Shown: piece after piece, positions 41,654 through 41,974 of the stretch
How positions within the stretch are numbered: the first letter of the stretch is position 1
Layout: each line of letters opens with the position of its first letter
NCBI RefSeq assembly: GCF_000757845.1
Contig: NZ_CP007753.1
Location: 930,001-994,000, forward strand
Source: Prochlorococcus sp. MIT 0604
GTDB taxonomy: Bacteria > Cyanobacteriota > Cyanobacteriia > PCC-6307 > Cyanobiaceae
Direction of reading: 5' to 3'
Length of the DNA: 64,000 bases
Program-made: the position numbers and the translations under genes
The notes under the pieces: generated by a model
Database searches by the model: none
Told to the model about the DNA's origin: nothing
Seen by the model: the letters and a program-made list of their open reading frames with translations, nothing else

Positions 41654-41687
41654 AAAAAAAAGATCCCTTCTTAAGGGATCTTTTTAA
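41654..41687. terminator. Bidirectional Rho-independent terminator
   Basis: AGATCCCTT and AAGGGATCT form a 9-bp stem with a 3-nt loop, flanked by A-rich and T-rich runs on both sides. Works in both directions; the reverse-strand transcript through the 16-aa frame at 41701 probably ends here. Confidence 0.75.
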
Positions 41688-41700
41688 AAATTGATTTACA

Positions 41701-41751
41701 TCAAGTGTTTCCTTGTTTCCACTGAAATAAATCAATTCCTCCTACACACAT
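41701..41751 (-). CDS. Candidate 16-aa peptide upstream of a terminator
   Basis: Reverse-strand ATG at 41751: MCVGGIDLFQWKQGNT then TGA, ending 14 bp before the terminator stem at 41654-41687. A Trp/Gln-rich short peptide with a single Cys. Very short, so coding status is uncertain, but the transcript is plausible because of the terminator. Confidence 0.35.
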   Translation of the reverse strand: MCVGGIDLFQWKQGNT

Positions 41752-41828
41752 ACCTAATATCACACCTATATTCAAAATATGTAATGCTTAATGGACCTCT
41801 ATCTTAACTGTCACATGGGAAAAAATAT

Positions 41829-41931
41829 AAAAAAGTACTCAAACATCTAGGTCGAGTACTTTTAAAGTTATCAGAAAAAAGTGTGTGAGGAGTTTCTGAT
41901 GTATATAATCTACTCCGTAGATAATTTAAAA
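41829..41931 (-). ncRNA. Yfr1-like small RNA candidate
   Basis: The reverse strand contains ACTCCTCACACAC (plus 41881-41893), the CA-rich core of the sRNA Yfr1, in a 17-nt loop closed by ATCAGAA/TTCTGAT (7 bp). Upstream is a stem-loop ATCTAC-GGA-GTAGAT (41908-41922), downstream a terminator AAAAGTACTC/GAGTACTTTT (41831-41863) with a T run. A possible -10 TATACT lies at 41938-41943. As I recall, Yfr1 normally lies between guaB and trxA, and neither is here, so this is Yfr1-like. On the plus strand the same sequence would be complementary to Yfr1 and precede a 17-codon frame (41899-41952). Confidence 0.5.
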
Positions 41932-41974
41932 CGCTACAGTATAAATCACTAATTATTTAAATCTTTGAGAAAAA

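Follow-up and report, generated by a model that had tools for sequence, protein, structure and literature searches.

The minus strand of the window (the whole stretch of 64,000 nucleotides analysed here, G000:C1:930001-994000) almost certainly carries yfr18, a Prochlorococcus gene for an sRNA of the Yfr10 family, arranged in tandem with yfr5, a gene of the Yfr2 family. The identity, the structure and the conservation of Yfr18 were established in the present analysis. The Yfr18/Yfr5 site is real and functional, but it has already been described, as both RNAs are known members of known families. The features of Yfr18 and of its upstream region are as follows:

41829..41900 (model match 41819-41900), minus strand: Yfr18 sRNA (Yfr10 family, RF02362), aligning with the MED4 Yfr18 locus
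41881..41893, minus strand: Yfr1/Yfr10 core ACTCCTCACACAC, in a hairpin loop
41870..41900, minus strand: hairpin I, 7-bp stem ATCAGAA/TTCTGAT with a 17-nt loop
41829..41863, minus strand: intrinsic terminator of Yfr18
41907..41912, minus strand: -10 box TAGATT at -12 to -7, 6 nt ahead of the RNA start
41934..41952, minus strand: conserved upstream box TTAGTGATTTATACTGTAG, candidate control site

Identification of the minus-strand RNA as Yfr18

In covariance searches with Rfam models (Infernal), the Yfr10 model (RF02362) matched the minus strand from 41900 to 41819 with 59.7 bits, compared to a gathering threshold of 43, and an E-value of 1.2e-6. No match to the Yfr1 model (RF01116) was obtained at this locus. 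The original prediction of a regulatory RNA displaying the Yfr1 core on the reverse strand is thus upheld except for its name, and the Infernal search that it proposed as a check lends covariance support to a Yfr10-type RNA instead of Yfr1. The only match to the Yfr1 model above threshold lies about 28 kb away and outside the window, at G000:C1:999775-999828 on the minus strand. The open reading frames surrounding it (L044 858-1181 and 1412-2575) correspond to thioredoxin (107 aa) and IMP dehydrogenase, the trxA and guaB names being read from the sequences alone without a family search; Yfr1 was therefore found where it had been expected, between guaB and trxA. The 13-nt core ACTCCTCACACAC has only two copies in the genome of 1.78 Mb, each on the minus strand, the second being that of Yfr1. 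As a control, the same pattern read backwards had no occurrence in this genome.

The locus aligns with that of Yfr18 in strain MED4, reported in 2008 together with Northern and 5'RACE results (PMC2518516), and the two share the hairpin, the terminator, the strand and the Yfr5 neighbour; the window locus is therefore the ortholog of Yfr18. The resemblance extends to the core, to the terminator stem AGTACTCG/TGAGTACT and to the position of Yfr5 directly downstream, whereas bases differ in the upstream region and in the linker, as the MED4 gene is the ortholog of another strain. Transcription of the MED4 gene has been demonstrated, bands of 29 and 76 nt being detected, and the gene was annotated as complement(972284..972388) (PMC2518516). 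The annotated 5' end lies 67 nt further upstream than the hairpin, and the 3' end falls before the terminator, so that a longer Yfr18 transcript is possible. Regarding Yfr10 itself, an RNA of about 78 nt located in MED4 at 346661-346738 exactly as published, the family resemblance consists of a score above the gathering threshold, a core placed in a loop, a position upstream of a Yfr2-family gene and a common upstream box. By contrast, the MED4 Yfr10 copy of genomic island 1 differs in its terminator and 3' part.

Structure and conservation of Yfr18

Read from 41900 to 41870, the minus strand consists of ATCAGAA-ACTCCTCACACACTTTT-TTCTGAT, exactly the 17-nt loop closed by a 7-bp stem that had been described, and the core is present within it at 41881-41893. 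The terminator that had been proposed after this hairpin is found as GTACTC/GAGTAC followed by a T run, ending near 41829. Folding of the 82-nt Yfr18 RNA gave -18.3 kcal/mol (z = -5.07), and none of 200 shuffled sequences was as stable. Among 70 related loci, a stem of at least 6 bp with the motif unpaired was found in 65, and a terminator hairpin in 67, built from 33 different stem sequences. The core is unchanged in 30/30 aligned orthologs, a figure partly conditioned by the choice of these loci from model hits. A blastn survey, which relies on plain DNA similarity independently of the motif, recovered most of the 311-bp locus in 64 of the 71 near-complete congeners searched. No DNA similar to the window locus was detected in 50,697 phage records, and a phage origin was rejected.

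Yfr10 was detected in 167 of 200 congeners. When 121 genomes were drawn from the family, nine had Yfr10 above threshold, eight of them in the genus, this genome included. One Yfr10 match and one Cyano-1 (RF01701) match exceed the thresholds in this genome, compared to three and four, respectively, in MED4. Outside the high-light genus, the Yfr10-Yfr2 tandem is also present in genomes of genus g35 (L236-L239), where the complement of the core is mostly perfect instead of bulged. Secondary Yfr10-type copies with altered cores (L034, L035, L038, L187, L191, L192 and L197-L199) all adjoin Yfr2 genes with GTGTGAAGGAG and look like decaying or diverging duplicates.

Yfr5 and its predicted pairing with Yfr18

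Three features were identified downstream of Yfr18:

41656..41751, minus strand: Yfr5, an sRNA of the Yfr2 family (Cyano-1, RF01701), terminator included; Rfam score of 78.8 bits (41684-41751), z = -5.60 for the fold (41656-41751)
41739..41749, minus strand: anti-Yfr1 motif GTGTGTAGGAG, located at the Yfr5 5' end
41804..41814, minus strand: GTGACAGTTAA box, ahead of the Yfr2-family gene and conserved in orthologs

The gene at 41684-41751 is a member of the family comprising Yfr2 to Yfr5, whose RNAs, unlike Yfr18, have the complement of the core instead of the core. In 68 of 70 Yfr10-family loci, a Yfr2 core lies 167-198 nt past the RNA start and on the same strand, and the literature places Yfr10 upstream of a Yfr2-family gene in high-light Prochlorococcus (PMC6778093). 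The GTGACAGTTAA box may be the published CGRE1 site, the yfr2 genes being under CGRE1/GntR control (PMC6778093).

Yfr5 starts with AUGUGUGUAGGAGG, and GUGUGUAGGAG at its 5' end is complementary to CUCCU-C-ACACAC of the Yfr18 loop with one C bulged, a pairing of the Yfr2-family 5' end with the core that was noted in 2008. The predicted duplex between the Yfr18 loop and the Yfr5 tail has a co-folding energy of -10.0 kcal/mol (ddG), equalled by 1 of 500 tail shuffles; that between Yfr1 and Yfr5 reaches -15.4 kcal/mol, equalled by 4 of 500. These statistics were obtained by co-folding with a shuffled tail in place of comparing full-length duplex energies with shuffles, as the latter ignore the self-folding of AT-rich RNA and are uninformative. 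Since a single Cyano-1 match and a single Yfr10 match lie above threshold here, Yfr1 and Yfr18 share one antagonist.

The 13-nt core is displayed single-stranded in the Yfr18 hairpin loop, and its UCCU-containing sequence would base-pair with mRNA stretches; Yfr2-family RNAs would pair with the same core through their complementary 5' tail and titrate Yfr18. The close spacing of yfr18 and yfr5 may favour the encounter of the two RNAs. In MED4, the pairing with Yfr2 and the antagonism of Yfr2 towards Yfr1 and Yfr10 were demonstrated in 2019 by pull-down, RNase E and reporter experiments: Yfr1 and Yfr10 are recovered in pull-downs with Yfr2, which blocks the binding of either to ppa mRNA as well as the repression of PMM1121 by Yfr1, and which is itself protected from RNase E by Yfr1 and Yfr10 (PMC6778093). 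MED4 Yfr10 is more abundant in darkness and less abundant in high light and under nitrogen starvation (PMC6778093). The targets and the regulation of this Yfr18 copy would, by homology, follow those of its MED4 relatives.

The tandem arrangement in 68 of the 70 loci, together with the predicted Yfr18-Yfr5 pairing, would also suit an RNA acting as a decoy only for the neighbouring Yfr2-family RNA, without mRNA targets of its own. We regard this as unlikely, as peaks from 253 mRNAs were recovered in a pull-down with the Yfr10 paralog of MED4, which also leaves a footprint on ppa mRNA (PMC6778093). Still less probable is that Yfr18 is a duplicated Yfr1 performing the same function as Yfr1. The two RNAs have an identical 13-nt core, and MED4 Yfr1 and Yfr10 share targets (PMC6778093), but the Yfr1 model has no match here, the fold places the core of Yfr18 in a hairpin loop and not between two hairpins as in Yfr1, and about half of the Yfr1 targets and two thirds of the Yfr10 targets are specific in MED4 (PMC6778093).

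Promoter region and upstream box

The retained reading, a Yfr10-family gene on the minus strand, is accompanied by a -10 box found as TAGATT, TAAATT, TACATT or TAAGTT in 30/30 orthologs. A 5' stem-loop of the RNA had also been proposed. The corresponding sequence, CTAC-GGA-GTAG at about 41910-41920, overlaps this conserved box and its stem is broken in 18/30 orthologs, so that it more likely belongs to the promoter than to the RNA.

Further upstream, TTAGTRATTWATACTSTAG is found at about -52 to -34 before the Yfr18 orthologs and, at the same distance, before most Yfr10 paralogs. This upstream box has a single perfect match in the genome, the runner-up having 3 mismatches; in MED4, one additional site with 2 mismatches was found. 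As a regulon motif it was rejected, since no second site in this genome has fewer than 3 mismatches and the total number of sites is near background (18 versus 12 in the control). Shared descent alone could explain the box, because the genes are paralogs. Its equal spacing and its conservation across diverged flanks nevertheless argue for a control site. The upstream box is the only new detail at the window locus.

The end of the plus-strand frame of 17 codons coincides with this upstream box, which also precedes Yfr10 paralogs lacking the frame. It had been suggested that GTGTGTGAGGAGT, read on the plus strand, acts as a Yfr1 target site and overlaps the ribosome site of this frame. AGGAG does lie 6-7 nt before the ATG, which overlaps the hairpin stem, and the ATG and the 17 codons are kept together in 20/30 orthologs. 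A real gene with such a target site is nevertheless scarcely credible, as the ATG is gone in 7/30, including the most distant ones (L041, L193, L196), and the frame is cut in 3 more, while the minus-strand loop remains exact in 30/30 despite these losses and the plus-strand AGGAG is just the complement of the core.

Candidate phage-borne RNAs with the same core

A scan of IMG/VR for AACTCCTCACACAC yielded 119 stretches, most of which are likely due to chance because the collection is large. Six marine phage contigs nevertheless carry an unannotated, Yfr1-like predicted RNA (L104, L075, L147/L264, L265/L269, L266/L276 and L273/L438; L265/L269, L266/L276 and L273 were recovered later by protein similarity). 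That of L104 is given as an example:

8195-8310 of L104, minus strand: candidate RNA with a 5' hairpin, unpaired CUCCUCACAC and a terminator (sequence layout)

Relative to the terminase gene, the candidate RNA is located some 0.9-1.1 kb upstream, on the opposite strand. A TGATCTCTATACTG block comes first, followed by a hairpin of the GTAGG type, then by an unpaired stretch containing CTCCTCACAC and finally by a terminator and its T run. The L273 terminator has a different sequence, and the L265/L269 contig ends before the terminator position. Folding of two of these RNAs left the core unpaired and gave z = -4.87 and -4.33, and the core is kept while the flanks diverge. A scan blind to the core, relying on the promoter-plus-hairpin pattern, returned exactly the six contigs, with the core in 6/6. 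The RNA is missing at this place in the low-GC relatives L272, L274 and L275 and in the high-GC relatives examined. Rfam gave no match above threshold for the phage RNA, one copy scoring 27.3 bits with Yfr10 compared to the gathering threshold of 43, and a literature search with incomplete journal coverage returned no publication on such a phage RNA.

The six contigs belong to integrase-bearing Autographiviridae, probably of Prochlorococcus. The phage terminase shares 80.6% identity with its counterpart in Synechococcus phage S-SRP02, and the tRNA-Leu(UAA) of the phage abuts its integrase. A 103-bp stretch at this tRNA matches genome G281 with 95% identity at the G281 tRNA-Leu(UAA), which lies beside an integrase remnant (G281:C1:556902-557131, L436). 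This site is the apparent attachment site of the phage group, and G281 is its likely host. Near its 5' end, the G281 Yfr2 has UGUGAGGAGUU, which forms a perfect 11-bp duplex with the L104 RNA (-17.6 kcal/mol; as good in 0 of 500 shuffles). We tentatively propose, with slightly more doubt than confidence, that these phages exploit the Yfr1-core/Yfr2 network, a Yfr1-type RNA encoded by Autographiviridae either titrating the host Yfr2 or imitating Yfr1 on host mRNAs. This proposal concerns the related loci and not the window.

Cyanopodovirus contigs related to P-SCSP1 (L069, L072, L086 and L256-L259) carry ACTCC(T/A)CACAC upstream of the small terminase gene, immediately preceding a TATAAT box, and this sequence is probably a promoter element. 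The matches of L069, L072 and L086 were set aside as chance occurrences near a promoter, because relatives do not retain the motif and it abuts the TATAAT box.

Significance of the locus

Taken together, the locus confirms known biology: it holds one of the best-conserved RNA-RNA regulatory pairs in marine picocyanobacteria, reduced here to one Yfr10-type and one Yfr2-type gene. The upstream box is a candidate site for the regulator of the Yfr10-type RNAs, a regulator stated to be unknown in PMC6778093. If the proposal for the phages is true, an RNA with the same core would tie the Yfr1-core/Yfr2 network to infection.
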